Shown in pieces: positions 3,625-14,861 of a stretch of 64,000 bases of DNA. Positions within the stretch are counted from its first letter, which is position 1; every line of letters starts with the position of its first letter. The notes under the pieces are model-generated. The model did no database searches, was not told where the DNA came from, and saw only the letters and a program-made list of their open reading frames with translations. Both the position numbers and the translations under genes were made by a program. The DNA is from an uncultured Saprospiraceae bacterium (lineage in GTDB: Bacteria > Bacteroidota > Bacteroidia > Chitinophagales > Saprospiraceae), in the NCBI GenBank assembly GCA_943788055.1, contig CALSOU010000010.1:138491-202490 (forward strand), read 5' to 3'.

Positions 3625-3657
3625 AAAAAATCCAAATCAAGACAGAGCTTGATTCGG
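3625..3657 (-). terminator. Rho-independent terminator after susD-like gene
   Basis: Read on the minus strand, AATCAAG (3654-3648) pairs with CTTGATT (3641-3635), extended by CC/GG outside one mismatch, and is followed by GGATTTTTTATTT. It lies about 30 bases past the SusD stop and would end the nutrient-uptake transcript. Confidence 0.65.
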
Positions 3658-3685
3658 ACCTACATACCTAGTTAGCGGCATTGTA

Positions 3686-5146
3686 TTATTCTTCCCACCA
3701 ATTCTTGCTATTGATATTGTCTCCTCCCATGCGCTGAGAAGCTTCTTGATAATTTACAGAGTTTGTTGCTTGCTCTGACTCCGGATAGAGATATCTCACG
3801 GGAAATTTTCCGTTGTTGAGATTGTCTGGACCTGGTTGGAGACTTGGAAACCCAGTTCTTCTCAAATTAAACCAAGCTTCATGACCATTACTGATCAGAC
3901 TAAGCCACTTCTGTGTCATTATTTTTTCTACCTCGTCTCCACTATCTAAGGTTACTAGATCTTGATTCATGTAATCACTTGGCATTTCAAGCTCCAAATA
4001 ATCAAAATGCGCTTGTATTGCATTTGTGTATAATTGGTTGGCATCCCCTGAAATATATCCTCGCTGAACAGCTTCTGCGAGAGCAAATAGCAGTTCAGAG
4101 TATATCATAAATTGTCCATCGACTCCGTTTGCAACATCGCGATAAATGGAACCAAATAGCGATATATCGTTCAAATCAATTCCCTCAGCGCTGATAGTCT
4201 CCCTACTCTGTCCATTTAGTAGTCCTTTGTATTCTGGATTGTTGTCAATTAGACTTTTACCAGTTGGCTTATAAAGAACTTCAACTCGGGGATCGTTCCA
4301 ATCTGTAAGAATGGTCTCAACCGTCTTCGTCATTCGGTGTTCTTGGTATAAACCTTGGCTCGCTTGAGACATTGGAAACTGGTTCGGGGCAGCACTCAGA
4401 TATGGGACTACAGCGTTATCTGCATTCGACTCCATCAATAAGCCACTATCTGCAAGTTCTTGAAGTTCTGAAAAATCTGAAAGTCGCTTCGAAATTCGTA
4501 GTGTATATCGAACTAAGAGAGAGTTTGCGAAACGTTGCCATTGTTCTAGACTATTTCCGAACATGACGTCTCCATTAATTGAAGCAGTAGTATTTTCGAG
4601 TGTGTTGTTCGCTTCTCGTAGTGTTGCAAGAATACCACTAGTAGGATTTGTATAAATATCCTCTTGAGTATCATAAACTGGAGCAGTAATCCCCTCTTTT
4701 GCCAAAAGTGCCTGAGTATAAGGGATATCTCCCCAGATATCCGTCAATTGAGAAAATAGATAACATTGCATGATATTGCCCACTGCAATGTAGGCTTCAT
4801 TTGTGCCTTCTACCGTTTGTATGGACTTTATATCAGTAAGCAGGGCGTAGATCGTATTCCAATACTCTGAGTTTGTACCCATCTCATATCGATCGATTCG
4901 TTCAAATTCCACACTTGCAGCAAATTGAGCTAGATAATTGGCTAAGCGAAACCCCTGATCATAGGTATTCGCATTTGCTGCCACAGATACTACATTTGAC
5001 AAAAGATACTGTGGATCAATATTTTCGGAAGAATTTGGATTCCTATTGATTTCTTCAAAGTTTCTTGTGCAACTTGCTAGCAAGACACAAACCGCAATTA
5101 GCAGGAAGGTTTTATTGATTGTATTTATGTTGAAATTATAGTTCAT
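3686..5146 (-). CDS. SusD/RagB-like outer-membrane lipoprotein
   Basis: A 486-residue surface lipoprotein that should act as the substrate-capturing lid on the SusC-like channel encoded just upstream. The N-terminus has a signal peptide with lipobox LLASC (Cys about residue 26). The body resembles the SusD-like_2 group: NRNPNSSENIDPQYLLSN, ADIWGDIPY-type motif (here DIWGDIPYTQAL) and a C-terminal HEAWFNLRRTGFPSL segment. It starts 37 bases after susC ends and is followed by a terminator, so it is the last gene of the minus-strand run beginning with the ynjB-like gene. SusD sequences do not reveal the ligand; context suggests nucleosides or a ribosyl compound. Confidence 0.92.
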   Translation of the reverse strand: MNYNFNINTINKTFLLIAVCVLLASCTRNFEEINRNPNSSENIDPQYLLSNVVSVAANANTYDQGFRLANYLAQFAASVEFERIDRYEMGTNSEYWNTIYALLTDIKSIQTVEGTNEAYIAVGNIMQCYLFSQLTDIWGDIPYTQALLAKEGITAPVYDTQEDIYTNPTSGILATLREANNTLENTTASINGDVMFGNSLEQWQRFANSLLVRYTLRISKRLSDFSELQELADSGLLMESNADNAVVPYLSAAPNQFPMSQASQGLYQEHRMTKTVETILTDWNDPRVEVLYKPTGKSLIDNNPEYKGLLNGQSRETISAEGIDLNDISLFGSIYRDVANGVDGQFMIYSELLFALAEAVQRGYISGDANQLYTNAIQAHFDYLELEMPSDYMNQDLVTLDSGDEVEKIMTQKWLSLISNGHEAWFNLRRTGFPSLQPGPDNLNNGKFPVRYLYPESEQATNSVNYQEASQRMGGDNINSKNWWEE

Positions 5147-5183
5147 AATTATATTTTAGTCTAATGATAGGATTGATGAAGGT

Positions 5184-8100
5184 CTAGAATTCAGTTTTGA
5201 GGCTTACTCCGATACTTCTAGACGATGGATAGGACATATCTTCTACACCATAGGTTAGATTACGATCTTGTACTCCATTAAGTTCAGGGTCAACATGAGG
5301 ATTTTCGGTAAATAACAACAAGTTATTTCCTATGATACCTAAGCTCATCCTTTGAAGTCCAATTCGACTGCAAATCTTCTCTGAAAAACCGTAGTAAATA
5401 CCAACTTGTCGCAGCTTCACATAACTCGCGTCATATACCGCACTTTCTTCATTTCCTCGATCAAAAAAGTTATTATAAAAACGACTTGCTTCTACATTGG
5501 TCGTATTTGGAACGTATTCCGGATTGTCAGTTGTGCCAATATTGACTACACCCTCTCCCACTACTCCGTCTTCCCGTCCAATTAGCGTTTCTTGAAGAAC
5601 TCCTGATGTGCTACCTAGAGCTTTTGTTCTTGAAACTAAGATTCCGCCCTGTCTCCAATCAAAAAGGAAATTTACCGATAGATTTTTATAAGAGAGTTCA
5701 TTACCCAATCCTAATGCAAAGTCAGGATTGTAATTCCCAAGAAGTCTAAGATTTCCGTCTTGAACAGGCAATCCATTTTCACCGTAGAGTATTTGACCAT
5801 CTATCTTAAAAAAACCTGTACCATACATATCTCCCACTCGGCCTCCTTCTTTTGCGATGTAGAAAGTTTCATTAGAGCCACCACCTCCACCAAAGAACTT
5901 TGCAGATCCTGCTACAAACTGATCAACCCCTTCAGGTAATTCTGTAACAATGCTCCTGAATGTAGAAAAATTGAAGCTAGTGGTCCATTTGAAGTCGTTA
6001 CTTTTGACAAGCTTAGTCCTCAACAATGCCTCGAGCCCTCTTGTACGAACCTCTCCTCCATTTTCTATCACATTACTAAAGCCAGATGTGTTGGATATTG
6101 GAAGACCTATAATCTGATTTACACTCGTATTTTGATAAACGGAAACATCAAATTGAACTCTATCCTTAAAAAACCAGTGCTCTAGACCTAATTCCAGAGC
6201 ACTTAGACGCTCAGGTTTGAGATTTGCATTTTTCAAAACAGTTTCATTTGTTACCCTAAAGAATGGACCATAGTTTTCATTAAATTGAAAAGTATTATTT
6301 AATTGATAGGGATCTGTATCATTTCCAGCGCTTGAGCTGCTAAACCTGAGTTTAGAGTAGGAAATAAATTGTGGTAATTCCACCGCATTAGACAGTACAA
6401 AACTTAAACCCGCTGAATAGTAAGCGAAAGAATTATTATCCAATGGCAAAGTACTACTCCAATCATTTCTCACCGCCACATCTGCATAAAGCATACTACG
6501 AAATCCAACATCAGCTAAACCATAAACGCTGTTAATTCTCTTTGTGAATACTTCACTTCTTCCTTTAAGCGGATTTCTAGAATTTGCGAGGGAATAAATA
6601 CCTGGAATGGATAACTGGGATGCCTCAGTGAATTGATAATTAATGTTTTGATCAAATCTATTTGCACCAATCGAAAATCCATATTGTATCTCTTTCGAAT
6701 CATTATCGTTATATGAAAGTAAAACATCATTATTCAATTCGTAATATCCGATTCTATCTTCCCTATAAGAGCCAAAAGCATTTCTATTCGTACTCACTGC
6801 GCGCCTAAACGCTCTATTATCGTTATAATTATCAACACCGGATCTAACTCGCAAACTCAACTTATCTGAAAACTGATAATTGACTGAAGCGTTACCAAAA
6901 ACACGATTCTTATTGAAGCTGTTTGTGTTTTCAAACATCGTAAAATAAGGGTTTGTAAGCCATAGGTAGTTAATATCGAAATGTTGAAGACCTTCTTGAC
7001 CTTCTTGCCAATAGTCTTTCATCGACTCAATATTCGCTTGACGTCCGGTCCAATTGAATCCATAAATAGGATTTTCATATCCATAGCCTAGATTTGGTCT
7101 ATTGTCACTCCTACTGTTTACATAATTTAAAAATCCATCAAACTGTAGACGATTTGTCAATTTCTGATCAACGCTCACAGCGATACCATCCCTTTTAAGA
7201 TCTGTATTAGGTAGAATCCCCGTATTGCGAATGTTATTGTATGAAACACGTACGCCACCACGATCTGTGCGATTTGTAATTGCGAAAGTATTTTGATTAG
7301 TAACTCCTGTCTCAAAAAAGTCGCGAACATTATTTGGGTTCGAGACCCAAGGAGTTGGCGTAATAGTAGTATAAGTACCGTCAGGTAGCAATCTCGACAA
7401 TACATCTCCCGCTAGTAACTCTGATCCGTCAACTGCTGTAGATGGAGAATCAAACTGAGCTACAAGAAATCCCTGATCAAGTTTTGGGCCGTAACTTGCC
7501 AAGCCTCCATCATTAACTCCAGCACCAGCACCATTTTGAAAAGAGTATTCTCCATTGGATCCTCCGCCGTAAACATTCTGATAATCAGGTAAAGTCAGTA
7601 AACTTTCAAATGTCATCGAGTTGGACATTGAAAATCCTATTCCTTTCTTGCGCTCTCCTTTCTTTGTTGTGATCACGACTACGCCATTTGCAGCTCTTGA
7701 TCCGTATAATGCTGCTGATCCGGCTCCTTTCAAGATTGAAACACTTTCAATATCATCTGGATTAATCTCCGAAACCCCATTTCCAAAGTCAACTTCTTGT
7801 AATGCTCCATCATTTGTCAAGTCGCTCGTGATCTGCTGATTACTAATGGGTACACCGTCTACGACAAACAGTGGTTCATTTAGTCCGCTAAGTGAGTTTT
7901 CTCCTCGAATAATAATACGAGAAGAGGACCCCACCCCTGAAGATCCATTTGTAACTAACACCCCTGAAACCTGACCTGCAAGGTTATTAACAACATTAGG
8001 CATCGGAACCTGCGTTAATTGCTGATTGCTTACTAGTCCAACTGCAGATGAAAGTGCTTGTTTTTCGCGTTTAATACCAAGTGCAGTTACAACAACTTCG

Positions 8101-8405
8101 TCTATGGCCCGGCTATCTTCCACCATGTAGATGATAGCAGGAAAAACTCCATTAACTATTTCAAGGTCTTTTGTTTCAAGACCTAAATAGGATACTCTCG
8201 CTGTCATATTCTTCAAATCGCTAGAAAATGAGAATTCTCCATTCACATCCGTGACAGTGGCAATACTTGTTCCCAGAATTTCTACAGTTGCACCAATTAT
8301 TGGAGTATCATCTTGCAAAAGAACTTTTGCATTGTAATCAACGCCCTGGCCGATCAGGTTAAATGCTATGAAATTTAGCAGTAATAGTATTTTGATTTTG
8401 ATCAT
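5184..8405 (-). CDS. SusC/RagA-like TonB-linked outer-membrane channel
   Basis: A 1073-residue TonB-dependent importer. It has a signal peptide (1-19), a carboxypeptidase-regulatory-like beta domain (about 24-108), the SusC signature AIDEVVVTALGIKREKQ, a plug domain (about 118-250, with GVLVTNGSSGVG and LFVVDGVPI) and a C-terminal barrel ending in aromatic Phe (SLKTEF). Length is typical. Its partner SusD follows by 37 bases, and a kinase gene lies 36 bases upstream with a nucleoside hydrolase before it, so the pair probably imports the compound processed by those enzymes. TonB energisation is family knowledge; the substrate is inferred from neighbours. Confidence 0.94.
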   Translation of the reverse strand: MIKIKILLLLNFIAFNLIGQGVDYNAKVLLQDDTPIIGATVEILGTSIATVTDVNGEFSFSSDLKNMTARVSYLGLETKDLEIVNGVFPAIIYMVEDSRAIDEVVVTALGIKREKQALSSAVGLVSNQQLTQVPMPNVVNNLAGQVSGVLVTNGSSGVGSSSRIIIRGENSLSGLNEPLFVVDGVPISNQQITSDLTNDGALQEVDFGNGVSEINPDDIESVSILKGAGSAALYGSRAANGVVVITTKKGERKKGIGFSMSNSMTFESLLTLPDYQNVYGGGSNGEYSFQNGAGAGVNDGGLASYGPKLDQGFLVAQFDSPSTAVDGSELLAGDVLSRLLPDGTYTTITPTPWVSNPNNVRDFFETGVTNQNTFAITNRTDRGGVRVSYNNIRNTGILPNTDLKRDGIAVSVDQKLTNRLQFDGFLNYVNSRSDNRPNLGYGYENPIYGFNWTGRQANIESMKDYWQEGQEGLQHFDINYLWLTNPYFTMFENTNSFNKNRVFGNASVNYQFSDKLSLRVRSGVDNYNDNRAFRRAVSTNRNAFGSYREDRIGYYELNNDVLLSYNDNDSKEIQYGFSIGANRFDQNINYQFTEASQLSIPGIYSLANSRNPLKGRSEVFTKRINSVYGLADVGFRSMLYADVAVRNDWSSTLPLDNNSFAYYSAGLSFVLSNAVELPQFISYSKLRFSSSSAGNDTDPYQLNNTFQFNENYGPFFRVTNETVLKNANLKPERLSALELGLEHWFFKDRVQFDVSVYQNTSVNQIIGLPISNTSGFSNVIENGGEVRTRGLEALLRTKLVKSNDFKWTTSFNFSTFRSIVTELPEGVDQFVAGSAKFFGGGGGSNETFYIAKEGGRVGDMYGTGFFKIDGQILYGENGLPVQDGNLRLLGNYNPDFALGLGNELSYKNLSVNFLFDWRQGGILVSRTKALGSTSGVLQETLIGREDGVVGEGVVNIGTTDNPEYVPNTTNVEASRFYNNFFDRGNEESAVYDASYVKLRQVGIYYGFSEKICSRIGLQRMSLGIIGNNLLLFTENPHVDPELNGVQDRNLTYGVEDMSYPSSRSIGVSLKTEF

Positions 8406-8441
8406 AATTAAATATTAGTAAGCTTTACATTTTGTGTCTAA

Positions 8442-9425
8442 TTAATCGGTAATATAGGCGTACGCCAATTGCAGTAATTCTCTCTTCTGCTCAAGGTCAA
8501 GACTAAGAGGCAATTGTGCTAGACCTAAAATTCTTCTCATAATTTCTATTCCTGCGCATTTTTCAGTCAGTTCAATATCTAAAGATGAACGAGACATGTA
8601 ACTAGCCAAGGCATGATCCAAGATTTCTTCAGATTGGTTTGCTAGCATTAGGTGAGCAATTGTGACCCCAACTTCAAATTCGGGAAATCCGAAAAAGCAA
8701 AACTCAGGATCAATAATCTGAATACCATGTTTTGTTTTCAACCAACTTCCAGGAAAATAGTCACCATGAAGTAAAGTGTTGCCGTCAGCTAAATAAAGCT
8801 TACCAATTTTTTCAACTTCAGTTTTAAGTAATTCATCAGCACGATAAGGTTTAGCTATTGCCTCAAGACCTTCGTGAATATCATCTAAATTCAGCCCATT
8901 GTCATCGATAAAAGGATAAACGAAAATATGCTTATGATTTAATTTTCGCATATCATGGTTTCTTATCACATATTCGGACGTATCAGAGGTATACTCTTTG
9001 TGCAACGTAGCTACAAATTGCATTACTTTGCTCAGGTCTTTCTCATCAATTTCTTGGTCCTTTTTATAGAGATATGTAAAATCTGTTCCAGCTCCTAAAT
9101 CAGCCATGATCATAATGTTCTCTTCCTTATCCACATGGAAAACGCGCGGAACCATAGACCTCAATTTGTTACTTGACTTAAGCAAGGTATAAAACTCCGC
9201 TTCTCTTTGACATCGATCTGCTGGCGCCGCAACCTGAGGGTATTTCTCCACATAATCTCTACTCTGCTTTACTATAAAGCTTCGAATATTTGTATTTACC
9301 CTTATTGTAAAATTCATATTTCCAGCACCAGGAATACTGACTTTTGTAACTTCTTCGCCTTCTTGAAGAAATCCGATTTTCGCTAAATACTCTGATACTT
9401 GCTTTGCTTCTGTTGTAAGTTTCAT
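8442..9425 (-). CDS. APH/methylthioribose-kinase-fold small-molecule kinase
   Basis: A 327-residue cytosolic phosphotransferase. The order of motifs fits the aminoglycoside-phosphotransferase/MTR-kinase superfamily: SFIVKQSRDYV with the ATP-binding Lys53, the hinge region IMIMADLGAG (105-113), the catalytic HGDYFPGS (220-227, Asp222) and metal-binding IDPEF (238-242). HGDxxPGS plus IDPEFxFFGxPEFEVG resembles MtnK (5-methylthioribose kinase) more than antibiotic kinases, although overall identity was not measured. It lies 33 bases after the nucleoside hydrolase, whose ribose-type product would be a logical acceptor. Alternatives are a choline, thiamine or fructosamine kinase. Antibiotic resistance is unlikely from context. 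Confidence 0.75.
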   Translation of the reverse strand: MKLTTEAKQVSEYLAKIGFLQEGEEVTKVSIPGAGNMNFTIRVNTNIRSFIVKQSRDYVEKYPQVAAPADRCQREAEFYTLLKSSNKLRSMVPRVFHVDKEENIMIMADLGAGTDFTYLYKKDQEIDEKDLSKVMQFVATLHKEYTSDTSEYVIRNHDMRKLNHKHIFVYPFIDDNGLNLDDIHEGLEAIAKPYRADELLKTEVEKIGKLYLADGNTLLHGDYFPGSWLKTKHGIQIIDPEFCFFGFPEFEVGVTIAHLMLANQSEEILDHALASYMSRSSLDIELTEKCAGIEIMRRILGLAQLPLSLDLEQKRELLQLAYAYITD

Positions 9426-9458
9426 TTTATCTTTTATTTTGTCTTATTCTGATGAATT

Positions 9459-10373
9459 CTATTTGAAAGTACCAATCAATTTTTCGTGAAATCCCTGCAC
9501 AACGTCATAGCAATATTTGACTGGGTAAACCCCTGAATCATCGCACAGTAGGTAGTTTTTGAACACGGTCTTATCATTATCTGGTACAGTATCATTCTCA
9601 TGTATTTCCAATCTCGCCAAGAGAGGCTCAGAAATAATATCCTCGGGAGCAATCAAATAATGACTGGCAAGCACGTCAAATGGATTGAAGCCATCTGCTC
9701 CTGCTTGCTTCCATTGTTCCAGCCAAGCGATTGAGTGATTTGCGATCCACTTGCTCCCTTCACTACGTTTTGAAAGCTGTTCCAAGTGATTATCTGTGAT
9801 CCAAACCTTACTTGATATCTCAAATGGACACAAAGTCAGTGCGACTTCAGCTTCAAACATCACTCGAAAAGCATCATTATCTAGATCAAAATTCAAATCT
9901 CTCGCTCTTGCACCTTGCGTTCCAATTGCAAAATAATCTGTTGACTTTCTGCGGCCAGCTACAAGGACAACTTCCTCGATTTGACTAGCTAATTCTGGAT
10001 AAAGCAGGATCAAAAGACCAACGTTAGTCGCTGGACCTATCGCCATTATAGTCAATTTCTCAACTTTTAGTGCGCTTGCTAGAGCTTCTACCGCATCATT
10101 GGTAACAACATGTTCTAGATTAATCGCTTCCCCTGCGCCTTTATAAACTAGAATTTCGTAGCGAGCGAAATCTGTCGCCATCTCCTTGCATAATCTATAT
10201 GCGTCATCAATTCTAGTATTTCCAAAAACAGCACTAATTCCACGAATTGTGACCGCATCAGAATGCATCAATTGAAAAATCGCGTATCCATCATCTACAT
10301 CGCTATAACCTGGACGTGTGTAACGTTTCATACCAGCTGATAGGTCAGTGTCAATCCATACTTGCTTGTTCAT
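9459..10373 (-). CDS. Inosine-uridine-type nucleoside hydrolase
   Basis: A 304-residue N-ribohydrolase that should split a ribonucleoside into base and ribose. The calcium site characteristic of the family is visible: DTD (8-10), DVDDGYA (25-31) and NFDLDNDA (161-168), with Asp233 in FNPFDVLA replacing the usual late Asp ligand block. IGPATNVG (112-119) matches the conserved GPLTN turn. The start VWIDTDLSAGMKRY contains an insertion between the first and second Asp motifs compared with classical IunH, where DxDxxxDD is contiguous, so specificity may differ. No signal peptide, so it acts in the cytoplasm after uptake. It follows the importer ATPase and precedes the kinase in one operon. Confidence 0.88.
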   Translation of the reverse strand: MNKQVWIDTDLSAGMKRYTRPGYSDVDDGYAIFQLMHSDAVTIRGISAVFGNTRIDDAYRLCKEMATDFARYEILVYKGAGEAINLEHVVTNDAVEALASALKVEKLTIMAIGPATNVGLLILLYPELASQIEEVVLVAGRRKSTDYFAIGTQGARARDLNFDLDNDAFRVMFEAEVALTLCPFEISSKVWITDNHLEQLSKRSEGSKWIANHSIAWLEQWKQAGADGFNPFDVLASHYLIAPEDIISEPLLARLEIHENDTVPDNDKTVFKNYLLCDDSGVYPVKYCYDVVQGFHEKLIGTFK

Positions 10374-10440
10374 TATATATCTTTTTCTTAAGATTATTCC
10401 TTTAAATAAATCGGTCTGTGGTTTCGTTATGGTTAAAAAA

Positions 10441-11178
10441 CTAGTCCGACTTGTTGGACGTGAGTCCTCCCCAAAAATCTATTTCATTGGCAACGCCCGT
10501 ATCCGGATCCGCCAAAAATGCTTGTTGTGATTTATAAATCTTAAGCCGTCCTTCCCTCATCAATCCAATTTCGTCTCCCATCAAGATAGCCTCCTTCATA
10601 TCATGTGTCACAAACAAAGAAGTGATCTTGTAGGTAGCAGACAAATCTGTAAAAAGCAGCTGCATATCTTTTCTAGTTCCTGCGTCAAGACTACCGAAGG
10701 GCTCGTCCAATAACAGAAGCAAGGGATTAGTAATAATTGCTCTTCCAAAAGAGACTCGTTGTCTTTGCCCTCCTGAAATAGCTTCTGGCATTTTATCGGC
10801 ATGGCCTTCTAGCTGAAGTTCTGCGATCATTCTACGAACCTCTTTATCTATGAATGACTTATCCATTCTTTTAATTCGTAAACCAAAAGCAATGTTCTCG
10901 TATACTGACAAGTGAGGAAACAAAAGATCTTCTTGATAGAGGTATACAATTCCCCTCTTGGCTGGTGGTACCGAATTCATCATTGTTCCACCCACCTTTA
11001 TTGACCCCTCATCTGGTGATTCGAGACCTGCAATCATTTTTAGCATAGTTGTTTTACCGCAACCTGATTTACCCAGAATACTGAGTGTTTTACCCGCTTC
11101 AAGATCTATATCTAACTGCTTGACAATTTCCTGATTGCCAAAACTTTTGCCCACTTTCTTAATCTCTAGAAAACTCAT
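10441..11178 (-). CDS. ABC importer ATPase, YnjD-like
   Basis: A 245-residue nucleotide-binding subunit. Walker A GKSGCGKT (36-43), Q-loop Gln82, signature SGGQRQR (135-141), Walker B LLLLLDEP (153-160) and the switch His192 (VTHD) are all present. Its ATG overlaps the stop of the upstream permease by four bases (11175-11178), so it is translationally coupled. The neighbouring YnjB-like lipoprotein suggests COG4136/YnjD rather than an iron, thiamine or polyamine system, though these ATPases are close relatives. It energises uptake through the two adjacent permeases. Confidence 0.9.
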   Translation of the reverse strand: MSFLEIKKVGKSFGNQEIVKQLDIDLEAGKTLSILGKSGCGKTTMLKMIAGLESPDEGSIKVGGTMMNSVPPAKRGIVYLYQEDLLFPHLSVYENIAFGLRIKRMDKSFIDKEVRRMIAELQLEGHADKMPEAISGGQRQRVSFGRAIITNPLLLLLDEPFGSLDAGTRKDMQLLFTDLSATYKITSLFVTHDMKEAILMGDEIGLMREGRLKIYKSQQAFLADPDTGVANEIDFWGGLTSNKSD

Positions 11179-11948
11179 AGAATTTTGTTGAATACGTATC
11201 TTTTGTTGACATAAATAAATATGACAGGTGGTAACATCAGCAAACAGCAGCTCATCGCACCATAGTAAAAATTTGATTCCTTTATAAATAAAAAGACCTG
11301 TATAGTCAGCGTCTGAACCTTCCCTACTCCAATTATTGAACTTAAGCCAAATTCAAACCAGGAGATCAGAAAGGTTTGAAAAAAACAGATAAGTATCAGA
11401 TTCTTTGAAAGTGGAAATAGAACTTTTGTGAATTTTTGGACGAGGCTTCCGCGCAAAGTCGCGACAAGATTTTCATAATCCTTGGTCTTCTCAGTCCAAA
11501 ATGGACTAAAAAATATCATCGCATAAGGGAAGGCAATAAAGAACTGAGCCAAAATAACTCCGAAAGTAGTCCCAAGAATACCAAGTCTTAAAAAATAGTA
11601 GCTCAGGCAGGCTCCAAAAACTACTGGAGCGAGTACATATGGAAAATAGCTAATGATTGTCCATAAATTTTTCTTCTTGTTGTAGTTTACAATTCTGCTC
11701 AGCAAGAACCCACATAGAGTGGAGCTCAGCGCCACTAGTAGGGAGATAAAGAGTGACAAAAAGAAGCTTTTGACAAGGCCTGTTTCTCCTCCTAAGACTG
11801 CTGCCCAATTCTTTAAGCCGATATAATTTGGAAGTATACTAGGAAATCTCCAATCAGCCGATAATGACAAGACTAGCAGGTAAAGGAAAGGAAACAATAC
11901 CCAAATGGCATAGGCTATCATTACAATTGAATTGGACGATCTACGCAT
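11175..11948 (-). CDS. ABC importer permease 2 (YnjC C-terminal-half-like)
   Basis: A binding-protein-dependent inner-membrane permease of about 257 residues with six predicted membrane segments. The EAA-like loop appears as TKDYENLVATLRGSLVQKFTKVL, the contact with the ATPase. I place the start at ATG 11946-11948 (MRRSSNS), 8 bases inside the upstream permease gene; an upstream TTG at 11985-11987 in the same frame would add 13 polar residues and looks less likely. In Escherichia coli YnjC is one long fused permease, whereas here the two halves are separate genes. It forms the transport pore with the 11941-12798 product. Confidence 0.86.
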   Translation of the reverse strand: MRRSSNSIVMIAYAIWVLFPFLYLLVLSLSADWRFPSILPNYIGLKNWAAVLGGETGLVKSFFLSLFISLLVALSSTLCGFLLSRIVNYNKKKNLWTIISYFPYVLAPVVFGACLSYYFLRLGILGTTFGVILAQFFIAFPYAMIFFSPFWTEKTKDYENLVATLRGSLVQKFTKVLFPLSKNLILICFFQTFLISWFEFGLSSIIGVGKVQTLTIQVFLFIKESNFYYGAMSCCLLMLPPVIFIYVNKRYVFNKIL

Positions 11949-12798
11949 GTGATACTGTTTTTGAACGGTGGTATGAAAAGACCACAAGCGTTAATAAACT
12001 AATAAGTATGGTATACATCACTGCGACAACATAGCCCTCCGATATTTTTGTCAAGTCATATTGATTCAATTCCCTTACAACCATAACAGAGATCATTTGA
12101 GGACTTTCTTGACCGAGAATAAGTGGAATCTCATAAGCCCCCAGTAGAAAAATAAAATACAGTATAATAATCATCCTTGTCCGATGCAGTAAAATCGGAA
12201 TCTTAATCTTAATGGCTATTTGTAGAGGGCTTGCGCCCAAAGAACTTGCTACATGAGCTAATTCGTCAAGACGTTCCTGCCGATACACGCTGATGAAGAG
12301 CAACAGAAAAAATGGCATCACAACACTGACAAAGGCTACGATAATCCCGATAGCAAGAGAATCATTTACCAAGCTAGGAAAAGATTGCAGTTGATCTATT
12401 AAACCAATAGAGTATGCCAGTCTAGAAATCCAGCCAGCTTCACTTAGAATCTGAATCAGAAAAAAGGCAACCACAATTCCTGGCATACATAATGGTAGGT
12501 AGCTCACAAATGACATGAACGGTTTCTCTAGCTTACTGACATACTTAATTGCAATCAGCATCGCAATGCCAACTGAAAAAACTACTGAAAGTATCGAAAT
12601 TACAATACTATAGAGCATAGATTGCACAAAAGTATCTTCAACTAAAACTTGCTGCCAAAATTTAGTCGTAAAACCATCATTTGCAATACCCACTATTCCA
12701 AAACTGTAAAGCAAGGCATACACTAAAGCTAGACCGAAAGGCAGCAAACCAATCAATAGAAATAAAGCTAAACCGATATATCTAGATTTACTTTTCAA
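11941..12798 (-). CDS. ABC importer permease 1 (YnjC N-terminal-half-like)
   Basis: A 285-residue inner-membrane permease with six hydrophobic segments and a clear EAA loop, LAHVASSLGASPLQIAIKIK (Gly-x-Pro-type coupling helix region). It overlaps the ynjB-like gene by 11 bases at its start and the second permease at its end, so the four transporter genes form one tightly coupled unit. With the second permease it should form a heterodimeric pore. The assignment as an ABC permease is firm; the link to YnjC depends on the neighbouring YnjB-like protein. Confidence 0.88.
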   Translation of the reverse strand: MKSKSRYIGLALFLLIGLLPFGLALVYALLYSFGIVGIANDGFTTKFWQQVLVEDTFVQSMLYSIVISILSVVFSVGIAMLIAIKYVSKLEKPFMSFVSYLPLCMPGIVVAFFLIQILSEAGWISRLAYSIGLIDQLQSFPSLVNDSLAIGIIVAFVSVVMPFFLLLFISVYRQERLDELAHVASSLGASPLQIAIKIKIPILLHRTRMIIILYFIFLLGAYEIPLILGQESPQMISVMVVRELNQYDLTKISEGYVVAVMYTILISLLTLVVFSYHRSKTVSHA

Positions 12799-14011
12799 TT
12801 ACTTCCTTTCTAAAATCTTCATAAAGTCGAATCATATATTGTGGGTCAGGCTCTTGTATAGCATATGCTGCAAGTTCCTCTATAGTTGCTCCATATTTCC
12901 TCTTTTCACGATTTTCAAACTTCACTTTCCAGTCATCGCTTAGTTTATCTATATCCAATACTGTATTCGCGTCCATCCCTGATGGATCAATTTTACGCAA
13001 CTGTGCTTCGGGCGAAATCATGTAGTTAATCACGACCATTGCACCGGCCTTATTGGATGCATTATAATGAATACCCAAATAATTTGAATTTCTAATTGTT
13101 CCATTTTTCCAAGGGTAAACTCTGGTCGTATTTGGGAACAATCCTTGACGGATTTTATCGTCAATTGACCCTTCACCAAAACCATAACACAAACTAAGTT
13201 CTCCATTGGCGTAAAGCTGATCCATCTTTGTTTGTTCTTTTGGAAAAGTCTCCCCTTCCTTCCAAAAATTCTTTTTGTTTCTATTAATCCACTTCCACAA
13301 CTGACCAGATAGTCGATTATACTTTTGCTCATCAAAGGCTCCATTTAAACCATCTTTATCTCCACTGATCTCAGCAAAAAAACTCTTGAGCAAAGTCATA
13401 CCAGAAAAATCATTACTTATTGTAAACTGACCTGGATTTTCAGCAATCCAAACCTCTAGATCAGATAGATTTGCAGGTGGGTTCGGCGTTTTCTTTAAGT
13501 CGTGAACCATGGCAAACTGTGTAATACTCCAGGGACACTCCATGTAGTTTATAGGCTGCTGAAAATCTATACTGATGTGAGGATTCTCAAAATCAATTAA
13601 TTGTGAATTTGGCAACGACTCTACGAATGGGCCCCACAAGCCTTTAATCTGTCTTAATTGAAAAAATGTCTCTCCATTAATCCACGACATATCTACTTGT
13701 CCTGAATTTGATCCAGCTTGCTTTTCACTCATTACCAATTGAACTATTTCGGGTCCTTGACCACCAACGAGCTTCAATTCAATATCATAAAGTTCTTTGA
13801 CTTTTGGGATTAAAAAATCATTCATGTAACTATTGATGGCGGGACTACCCTGCCACATCATAAAGTGCACCGTACTTCCTTTTGCCTGCAGCTCAATTTC
13901 CTTCCAATCAGTCGCTAAAAGATCAATATTTTGCACAGCTTTCTCGCGCTTACAGGCACTCAGAGATAGCAAGAGCAGCACGAAACCGACAAAACGAAGC
14001 ATAGAATGCAA
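12788..14011 (-). CDS. YnjB-like substrate-binding lipoprotein
   Basis: A 407-residue periplasmic binding protein anchored by lipid: the signal peptide ends in lipobox LLSLSAC (Cys20). The mature part resembles E. coli YnjB from memory of that family: TVHFMMWQGSPAINSYMND near the N-terminus, QVDMSWINGETF, NFWKEGETFPKEQTKMD and SPEAQLRKIDPSGMDA with LDIDKL near the C-terminus. These line up with YnjB features such as WVNGENF, WREGKDFPPSPARMD and SPDAQLRKADP. The YnjBCD ligand is not established, so this gene names the system but not its cargo. It begins the run of eight genes down to SusD and follows a terminator-like hairpin, so a promoter probably lies at 14012-14065. Confidence 0.82.
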   Translation of the reverse strand: MHSMLRFVGFVLLLLSLSACKREKAVQNIDLLATDWKEIELQAKGSTVHFMMWQGSPAINSYMNDFLIPKVKELYDIELKLVGGQGPEIVQLVMSEKQAGSNSGQVDMSWINGETFFQLRQIKGLWGPFVESLPNSQLIDFENPHISIDFQQPINYMECPWSITQFAMVHDLKKTPNPPANLSDLEVWIAENPGQFTISNDFSGMTLLKSFFAEISGDKDGLNGAFDEQKYNRLSGQLWKWINRNKKNFWKEGETFPKEQTKMDQLYANGELSLCYGFGEGSIDDKIRQGLFPNTTRVYPWKNGTIRNSNYLGIHYNASNKAGAMVVINYMISPEAQLRKIDPSGMDANTVLDIDKLSDDWKVKFENREKRKYGATIEELAAYAIQEPDPQYMIRLYEDFRKEVIEK

Positions 14012-14138: not shown

Positions 14139-14861
14139 CTATATAGCTGGTGGGCCTCTAAGTCCCAAATAGGAATATTGGAACCTATTTGAATCCATAT
14201 TTTTGTCTTCGTGGATTGCTTGAAAGAACAAGCCCAAAAGCTCAATAATAATAGATATAGTAAGCAATAAATTACATGACTCGAGCCCTTTGAGTAGTCT
14301 CATAAAGTCTCTCCGTGAATTCAAATCAACCTTTGATTCAAGCAGATACAATGCCACAGAACTTTCAGCTATAAGATATTGTGAAAGATCATCCTGAAGG
14401 TTCCCAGTTTGCCAAGATAGTTGTGAGAACTTTTGGTAGTCAAACTGATCTCTATGCATTCCAATTAAATAAGCACCTCTGCGGAAAGAAGGACCCAAAA
14501 CTGGAACTCCTTGTGTTAGCTTTTCTGCGATATCCTTCCAATGGATGTCCCTGATATCAAGACAATCGTTTCCGACTGTGATGATACTTTCAAAGCCTTT
14601 AGCAAACAAATCCTGCATTGCGTTTGCAAGTCGCTCGCCAAAAGTTGACCCAATCTGAATCTCTTCATGATAATGATATACTGGCAAGCCCGAACTAGCT
14701 AGAACAGCCAATGTATTGTTTATCAGATGTGTAGCTACTACAGCATTTTGTCTCTTCGATTGTAGCGGACTCCATTTCTTGTGCGCCACTTCTGATTTCG
14801 CGGAGCGGCTAAAGAATAAAATTGCTGTCTTGTTGTTGCTTATCACAGGGCGAAAATACAC
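14139..14861 (-). CDS. DUF2064/TIGR04282-like glycosyltransferase-fold protein
   Basis: A 240-residue protein with features of the DUF2064 group, a nucleotide-sugar or CMP-transferase-like fold: an N-terminal TAILFFSRSAKSE strand-loop, a central TVGNDCLDI motif (the usual G-x-D-x-P metal-site loop, here with Cys-Leu) and GAYLIGM. The C-terminal 40 residues include a hydrophobic helix (LLLTISIIIELLGLFF). Some family members are linked to arsenosugar synthesis, but no ArsS or ArsM neighbour is present here, so I make no pathway claim. It is 63 bases downstream of the DoxX-like gene and may share its transcript. Confidence 0.65.
   Translation of the reverse strand: MYFRPVISNNKTAILFFSRSAKSEVAHKKWSPLQSKRQNAVVATHLINNTLAVLASSGLPVYHYHEEIQIGSTFGERLANAMQDLFAKGFESIITVGNDCLDIRDIHWKDIAEKLTQGVPVLGPSFRRGAYLIGMHRDQFDYQKFSQLSWQTGNLQDDLSQYLIAESSVALYLLESKVDLNSRRDFMRLLKGLESCNLLLTISIIIELLGLFFQAIHEDKNMDSNRFQYSYLGLRGPPAI

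Follow-up and report, generated by a model that had tools for sequence, protein, structure and literature searches.

A conserved Bacteroidota gene set joining YnjBCD, SusCD and a nucleoside-hydrolase-family enzyme: a possible uptake route for 5'-modified ribosides

What does a YnjBCD transporter carry? To our knowledge this orphan transporter has no established ligand, and the question is raised anew by a locus in which its genes stand in one run with enzyme genes and an outer-membrane SusC/SusD (SusCD) pair. The locus lies in a stretch of 64,000 nucleotides from an uncultured Saprospiraceae bacterium (assembly GCA_943788055.1, contig CALSOU010000010.1, positions 138,491 to 202,490), which is called the window below. 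An earlier note on this DNA had proposed that a nucleoside is captured, imported, cleaved and its ribosyl moiety phosphorylated, and that this context may offer YnjBCD a ligand. The present analysis indicates that the cassette quite probably serves to import a riboside, to cleave it and to phosphorylate the sugar. That nine genes form one cassette for import of a riboside modified at its 5' position (an arsenosugar being the likeliest candidate), which would be cut, with its sugar phosphorylated (likely at C1) and activated, is put forward tentatively, as a possibility that falls a little short of an even chance. In its favour are the gene set itself, the motifs of the enzymes, the nearly exact pairing of YnjBCD with a hydrolase that has no signal peptide, and, in some relatives, arsenosugar-labelled genes that are physically linked to members of the DUF2064 and SusCD families.

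The nine genes run in the same direction on the minus strand, from position 14861 to 3686 of the window, in the order DUF2064, YnjB-like protein, permease A, permease B, ATPase, hydrolase, kinase, SusC and SusD. The features are as follows.

14139..14861, minus strand: DUF2064 / TIGR04282-like protein, 240 amino acids, GTG start; predicted nucleotidyltransferase and ninth conserved locus member
12788..14011, minus strand: YnjB-like solute-binding lipoprotein, 407 amino acids; NF008633 359.2 bits (cut-off 203); mean predicted local distance difference test score (pLDDT) of the model 89.0
11941..12798, minus strand: ABC permease A (YnjC-like half); PF00528 41.1 bits
11175..11987, minus strand: ABC permease B (YnjC-like half); PF00528 30.1 bits
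10441..11178, minus strand: ABC ATPase (YnjD-like); PF00005 116.5 bits
9459..10373, minus strand: nucleoside-hydrolase-family enzyme, 304 amino acids; PF01156 102.1 bits (gathering cut-off 34.2); without a signal peptide here
10305..10343, minus strand: insertion of about 13 residues in the DxDxxxDD motif of the hydrolase, after Asp10 and before the Asp pair 27-28
8442..9425, minus strand: MTR (methylthioribose)-kinase-like sugar kinase, 327 amino acids; PF01636 40.8 bits (cut-off 23.2)
5184..8405, minus strand: SusC-family TonB-dependent transporter; TIGR04056 560.8 bits (cut-off 368.25)
3686..5146, minus strand: SusD-family lipoprotein; PF12771 307.7 bits (cut-off 27)
3628..3661, minus strand: weak terminator-like hairpin directly past the SusD stop

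From the YnjB gene downstream, the first three junctions are overlaps of 11, 47 and 4 bases and the next four are gaps of 67, 33, 36 and 37 bases; DUF2064 lies upstream of the YnjB gene at a distance of 127 bases. The coordinates of the open reading frames agree with the eight-gene run, its strand, order and spacing as first described, and the family assignments hold as well, with YnjB, hydrolase, SusC and SusD above their profile cut-offs and the kinase above that of PF01636. What the first description omitted is the adjoining DUF2064 gene, a member in 44 of 49 loci. Cys20 of the YnjB-like lipoprotein is invariant in the 27 aligned sequences. The hairpin after SusD is a weak feature, since the scanned stretch holds 10 such hairpins as compared to 8.6 expected from shuffles.

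Conservation in relatives was studied with an alignment of 30 hydrolases as query, which gave 56 loci in named genomes; a first scan with a single hydrolase sequence had matched nothing. Frames were called with a longest-frame script, and the proteins were then clustered. With the window included, 51 loci had a hydrolase frame in the family cluster, and omission of the distant L095 and L097 left the 49 loci counted here. Six further loci (L075, L083, L094, L098, L100 and L101) were left out for want of a hydrolase frame in the cluster, L075 and L083 holding most of the other genes. The genome-wide searches covered 38 carrier genomes, a selection from 57 loci. The gene set is conserved far beyond chance: hydrolase, SusC, SusD and DUF2064 are all present in 43 of the 49 loci, that of the window among them, and the counts for single members are 46 for SusC and SusD, 36 for the kinase and 27 for YnjB, permease A and permease B. 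Eight genomes from the 13 loci without kinase were searched, and all eight hold a kinase of 40-45% identity elsewhere. The order of the genes differs among loci, which implies that they have remained grouped through rearrangement. Within the phylum the hydrolase is uncommon (5 of 395 genomes at E 1e-60, including that of the window). The carriers belong to genera such as Marivirga, Algoriphagus, Zobellia, Cellulophaga, Maribacter, Portibacter and Psychroflexus, which are mostly marine.

The clearest hint to the cargo of YnjBCD comes from the localisation of the hydrolase. A signal was called when the N-terminal mean hydropathy exceeded 1.9 over 11 residues; L070 and L072, which hold the ATPase and the hydrolase only, were kept outside this comparison. 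Where YnjB and both permeases are present, the hydrolase is without an N-terminal hydrophobic stretch (27 of 27 loci), and where YnjBCD is absent it carries a signal in 19 of 20 loci, with a lipobox-like Cys, judged by eye, in about half. Fisher's test for YnjBCD against signal gives 2.9e-12, with related rows that are not independent. On trees of the 49 hydrolases the transporter label changes five times, at least three times on well supported branches; among 200 random pairings of three independent pairs, 180 were as expected in all three and 20 in two of the three, which is too few pairs for a test. The pairing of a signal-less hydrolase with YnjBCD makes it likely that YnjBCD imports the hydrolase's substrate. 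A hydrolase that moves between cytoplasm and periplasm in this way leads to a testable statement on the YnjBCD cargo, and it supports the proposed link between context and ligand better than gene order alone.

The transporter resembles that of Escherichia coli in make-up, YnjB belonging to the NF008633 subfamily; unlike there, two permease genes are present (a single one in E. coli), SusCD is added and enzymes are encoded in the same run. The fold of YnjB was also considered as a guide to the ligand and dropped, the ranks being of mixed ligand classes. With Foldseek, STM0429, a 2-aminoethylphosphonate binder, ranks high together with sugar-phosphate and iron binders; with VIA-align, binders of maltose, cellobiose and sulfoquinovosyl-glycerol are found, and ranks 1 and 50 differ by 2 Z.

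If YnjBCD indeed delivers the substrate of the hydrolase, the next question is what this enzyme cuts. With the group I nucleoside hydrolases (RihA, RihB, RihC, IU-NH) it shares PF01156, the Ca-site aspartates and the Asn residues of the ribose site. Residues D8, D10, D25, D27, D28, N52, D159, N161, F232 and D233 are invariant in the 30 aligned hydrolases. Unlike the group I enzymes, however, it has an altered DxDxxxDD fingerprint, in which 16 residues rather than the usual 3 separate Asp10 from the Asp pair and the Ca-binding aspartates are kept; in the four listed profile alignments with solved hydrolases, the match begins only at or after this insertion. Furthermore, Phe232, which precedes Asp233, occupies the place of the leaving-group His of known enzymes, and Asp159 that of Glu166, a residue that contacts the 5'-hydroxyl. 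According to the review PMC8910321, DxDxxxDD is the nucleoside hydrolase fingerprint, the His before the last Ca-binding Asp helps to activate the leaving base, and strict ribose specificity is common to all characterised isozymes, the C. fasciculata enzyme having very low turnover of nucleosides without a 2', 3' or 5' hydroxyl. The review also describes efficient cleavage of 4-nitrophenyl riboside, an O-riboside, without leaving-group protonation. Because of these specificity facts and the motif changes, it is plausible that the substrate is altered at its 5' end and carries a non-base leaving group.

Ordinary nucleoside scavenging can be weighed at this point. A common or tRNA-derived nucleoside would then enter through SusCD and YnjBCD, the hydrolase would yield base and ribose, and the kinase would form ribose 1-phosphate. 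Membership of PF01156 with conserved Ca-site Asp residues would suit such a process, as would the hydrolase-kinase pairs found also outside the locus (L040, L097). We nevertheless regard it as rather unlikely, in view of the Phe for the leaving-group His, the Asp for Glu166, the insertion of 13 amino acids in the fingerprint, a kinase that is nearest to MTR kinase, and DUF2064 and arsenosugar-labelled neighbours that it would leave unexplained. Thus, the earlier proposal of capture, import, cleavage and phosphorylation survives as one conserved unit, but an ordinary nucleoside as its substrate is less well supported, the leaving-group His being lost and the metal/ribose motif altered. The same applies to the model on which that proposal leaned, the Bacteroides rus locus. 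The rus locus also combines a SusC/SusD pair with a nucleoside hydrolase and sugar kinase, and it has PfkB-type ribokinases. Here, the sole kinase of the run has the APH/MTR-kinase fold and is MTR-kinase-like rather than ribokinase-like, the active-site motifs of the hydrolase are altered, and a YnjBCD importer and a DUF2064 protein are present, so that rus is less well supported as a model.

The kinase fits a 5'-modified riboside in that its best solved relative is a methylthioribose kinase (2olc, E 6.5e-19). Its score against TIGR01767 (S-methyl-5-thioribose kinase), 118.3 bits, is under the equivalog cut-off of 275. HGD (220-222), DPE (239-241), E294, R297 and R298 are invariant in 38 locus kinases, and residue 67 is Ala as compared to the W-loop Trp of 2olc. 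For MTR kinase, PMC2194712 describes HGD, DxE and RR motifs and a W-loop that seems to determine how large the 5-substituent can be. MtnK (2olc, 2pyw; PMC2194712) is thus similar as a profile relative with these motifs and a Glu three residues before RR, and it differs in length (397 residues as compared to 327), in the W-loop Trp, in the profile score, and in that MtnA is found in none of the 38 carriers. The window's genome (2,995,115 bases in 13 contigs) holds a single kinase copy, the only further match having an E of 0.007.

Salvage of external 5'-methylthioadenosine or 5'-deoxyadenosine would agree with the retained MTR-kinase motifs and with the alteration on the 5' side of the hydrolase; the hydrolase would then be a nucleosidase, and the kinase would act on MTR or 5-deoxyribose. 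Such salvage is nonetheless improbable. MtnA, the next enzyme of methionine salvage, was detected in 0 of 38 carrier genomes, the window's included, by a search that gave matches in 9 of 14 control genomes, for which reason methionine salvage was set aside; DUF2064 would also remain unexplained.

As a separate observation on the kinase region, a radical S-adenosylmethionine (SAM) protein is encoded after the kinase in 8 of 49 loci (L081, at 11949-12914, and L047, L050, L051, L052, L071, L088 and L090). It exceeds no NCBIfam cut-off among the 25 families listed, and it could act on the same sugar.

Which 5'-modified riboside, then, could be meant? According to PMC10456119, 5-dimethylarsinoyl ribofuranosides occur in microalgae in glycerol, phosphate, sulfate and sulfonate forms, and PMC12159101 describes adenosylation of arsenic by a radical SAM enzyme in oxo-arsenosugar biosynthesis. 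The NCBIfam label of the DUF2064 relatives in TIGR04282 is arsenosugar biosynthesis glycosyltransferase. The window's DUF2064 protein scores 58.1 bits against TIGR04282, under the cut-off of 134, and the cassette type in carriers about 58 to 107; among the rows listed, this cassette type is without the N-terminal KTRL stretch of true TIGR04282 members. The fold of the DUF2064 protein is nucleotidyltransferase-like, with a CofC-like match that stands above the rest. Behind the kinase in L078, genes for TIGR04282 (over the cut-off), rhodanese (NF045521) and purine nucleoside phosphorylase (PNP) are found, and rhodanese, TIGR04282 and PNP occur likewise in L079 and L086; in L085 a TIGR04283 protein over the cut-off is encoded beside the cassette. 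In total, 11 of 49 loci have a TIGR04283-like GT2, DUF547, rhodanese or PNP gene within 10 kb, some of them only one.

L118 holds an arsenosugar biosynthesis operon (ArsS TIGR04167, ArsM NF038099, TIGR04169, TIGR04282, PNP, rhodanese, DUF547, TIGR04283), and so does L122, where no rhodanese was recognised. This operon has the DUF2064 family in common with the cassette, is its neighbour or shares its slot in several relatives, and in both a ribose 1-phosphate derivative is expected; unlike the operon, the cassette would import and hydrolyse rather than build, and it lies in a genome without ArsS and ArsM. The ArsS neighbourhoods were inspected in 11 carrier genomes. In L121 and L124, a cassette-type DUF2064 gene stands beside ArsS and TIGR04169 or its homologue. 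Maribacter antarcticus (L126) has a single run in which ArsS (431 bits against a cut-off of 300) and a TIGR04169 domain (196.7 against 120) are followed by a symporter-like gene, SusD, SusC and DUF2064. The DUF2064 variant lies within 12 kb of TIGR04282, TIGR04283 or ArsS in 8 of 36 genomes, as compared to 0.45 expected from scattered genes if relatedness is ignored. In several Flavobacteria there is apparently one chromosomal slot that holds either the hydrolase cassette (14 loci) or ArsS genes (L116, L119, L121, L124, L126), which may reflect shared regulation and ancestry or a shared landing place only.

Two details of these regions may be recorded separately. In L126, positions 11265-12497, between ArsS and the sodium-symporter-like gene, encode a fusion of a peroxidase-like TIGR04169 domain with a phosphoesterase domain of calcineurin-like type. 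The slot is flanked by gene clusters c13, c27-c29 and c10-c12, with the cassette in L061, L064, L074 and L082, and ArsS with a TIGR04169-type gene in the ArsS loci.

The arsenosugar-labelled genes could also be shared tools for ribose 1-phosphate or nucleotide-ribose, and the substrate a riboside without arsenic, otherwise 5-modified or O-linked. Of 395 genomes examined in the phylum, 230 have TIGR04282 over the cut-off, and 27 of 38 carriers are without ArsS over the cut-off, both of which this explanation would accommodate. It would also agree with a neighbour of the second kinase in Zobellia, Pricia, Pseudozobellia and Algoriphagus: in all six loci fetched (L110-L115) this paralogue adjoins an ADP-ribosylglycohydrolase-like gene (PF03747). 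Other genes around the paralogue speak for the arsenosugar, with rhodanese, TIGR04282 and PNP nearby in five of the six loci, TIGR04283 in three of them and DUF547 in two. Still, DUF2064 of the same family and SusCD stand directly within ArsS/TIGR04169 gene runs, and a riboside without arsenic is considered unlikely.

An arsenosugar thus remains our best guess for the substrate, based on gene content and motifs, and every step beyond the identity of the genes is our inference. SusCD would pass an arsenoriboside through the outer membrane, and YnjBCD would carry it intact through the inner membrane for cleavage inside the cell; in lineages without YnjBCD, an exported hydrolase would cut in the periplasm. 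The released sugar would be 5-deoxy-5-dimethylarsinoyl-ribose, which the kinase would phosphorylate at C1 to 5-dimethylarsinoyl-ribose 1-phosphate, a product that the PNP of the arsenosugar operon would be expected to yield as well. DUF2064 may then convert the sugar 1-phosphate to a nucleotide sugar, the final fate of which could be re-glycosylation or breakdown. That the riboside bears arsenic is a possibility short of even. The full scheme, in which SusCD and YnjBCD capture algal arsenoribosides for uptake and re-use, the hydrolase splits an O-ribosidic bond, the kinase makes 5-dimethylarsinoyl-ribose 1-phosphate and DUF2064 activates it, stands distinctly short of even.

Several points weigh against the arsenosugar cassette. 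The localisation result amounts to about five events, and with three independent pairs a p value of 0.05 is out of reach. L065 is an exception, having no YnjBCD and a hydrolase frame without signal, and it was counted as such; a signal-like start lies just upstream of the hydrolase frame, in another reading frame, and the exception may be only apparent, due to a shifted frame. Neither the Foldseek nor the VIA-align ranks of the YnjB fold indicate a single ligand class. Loss of the W-loop Trp is a weak sign, because, according to PMC2194712, this Trp is semi-conserved and ordinary MTR kinases accept bulky 5-analogues anyway. The DUF2064 copy of the window is below the TIGR04282 cut-off, has FRRG, and has lost the DGG motif; three of the eight genomes with the variant near arsenosugar-labelled genes are Psychroflexus, and the shared slot alone could bring ArsS genes and cassette together. 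Within the window's order the kinase family is present in 24 of 298 genomes, and a hydrolase of this kind lies within 1.5 kb in only 7 of these 24, one of them at 31% identity. Finally, relatives of hydrolase and kinase are adjacent without transporters in L040 (the window's own family) and L097 (a Planctomycetota record).

The distribution of the arsenic genes is a further such point. In the window's genome neither ArsS nor ArsM exceeds its cut-off, and TIGR04283 is without a match at E 1e-20; the best ArsS score there is 36.6 bits (cut-off 300), and ArsM gave no match. Only ArsS scores over the cut-off were counted, since all 14 control genomes also match weakly. Among the 38 carriers, ArsS is found in 11 and ArsM in 8. 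An importer needs neither enzyme, yet their absence leaves room for another riboside. TIGR04282 over the cut-off in 38 of 38 carriers says little, since it is so common in the phylum, and its genome-wide presence was set aside as evidence. The window's genome has a true TIGR04282 copy, which is encoded beside an ABC permease and ATPase, where no arsenosugar gene was recognised by eye.

If the proposed role is correct, a class of ligands could be assigned to YnjBCD, and a set of genes to the organic branch of the marine arsenic cycle. Among the literature matches listed there was no work on bacterial genes for arsenosugar uptake or breakdown; with an arsenosugar as cargo, the cassette would provide genes for bacterial handling of a major organic arsenic form of algae.

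In the window as a whole, only two tRNAs over gathering scores and no riboswitch were found in a search for RNA elements. At 2328-2909, an isochorismatase/nicotinamidase-like gene, named by eye, is present as two short adjoining plus-strand frames of 72 and 115 amino acids, and may be broken. Similarly, between 26700 and 31200, a TonB-receptor-like gene and a GWxTD-type protein, also named by eye, are represented by short, widely spaced frames, due either to broken genes or to sequence errors.

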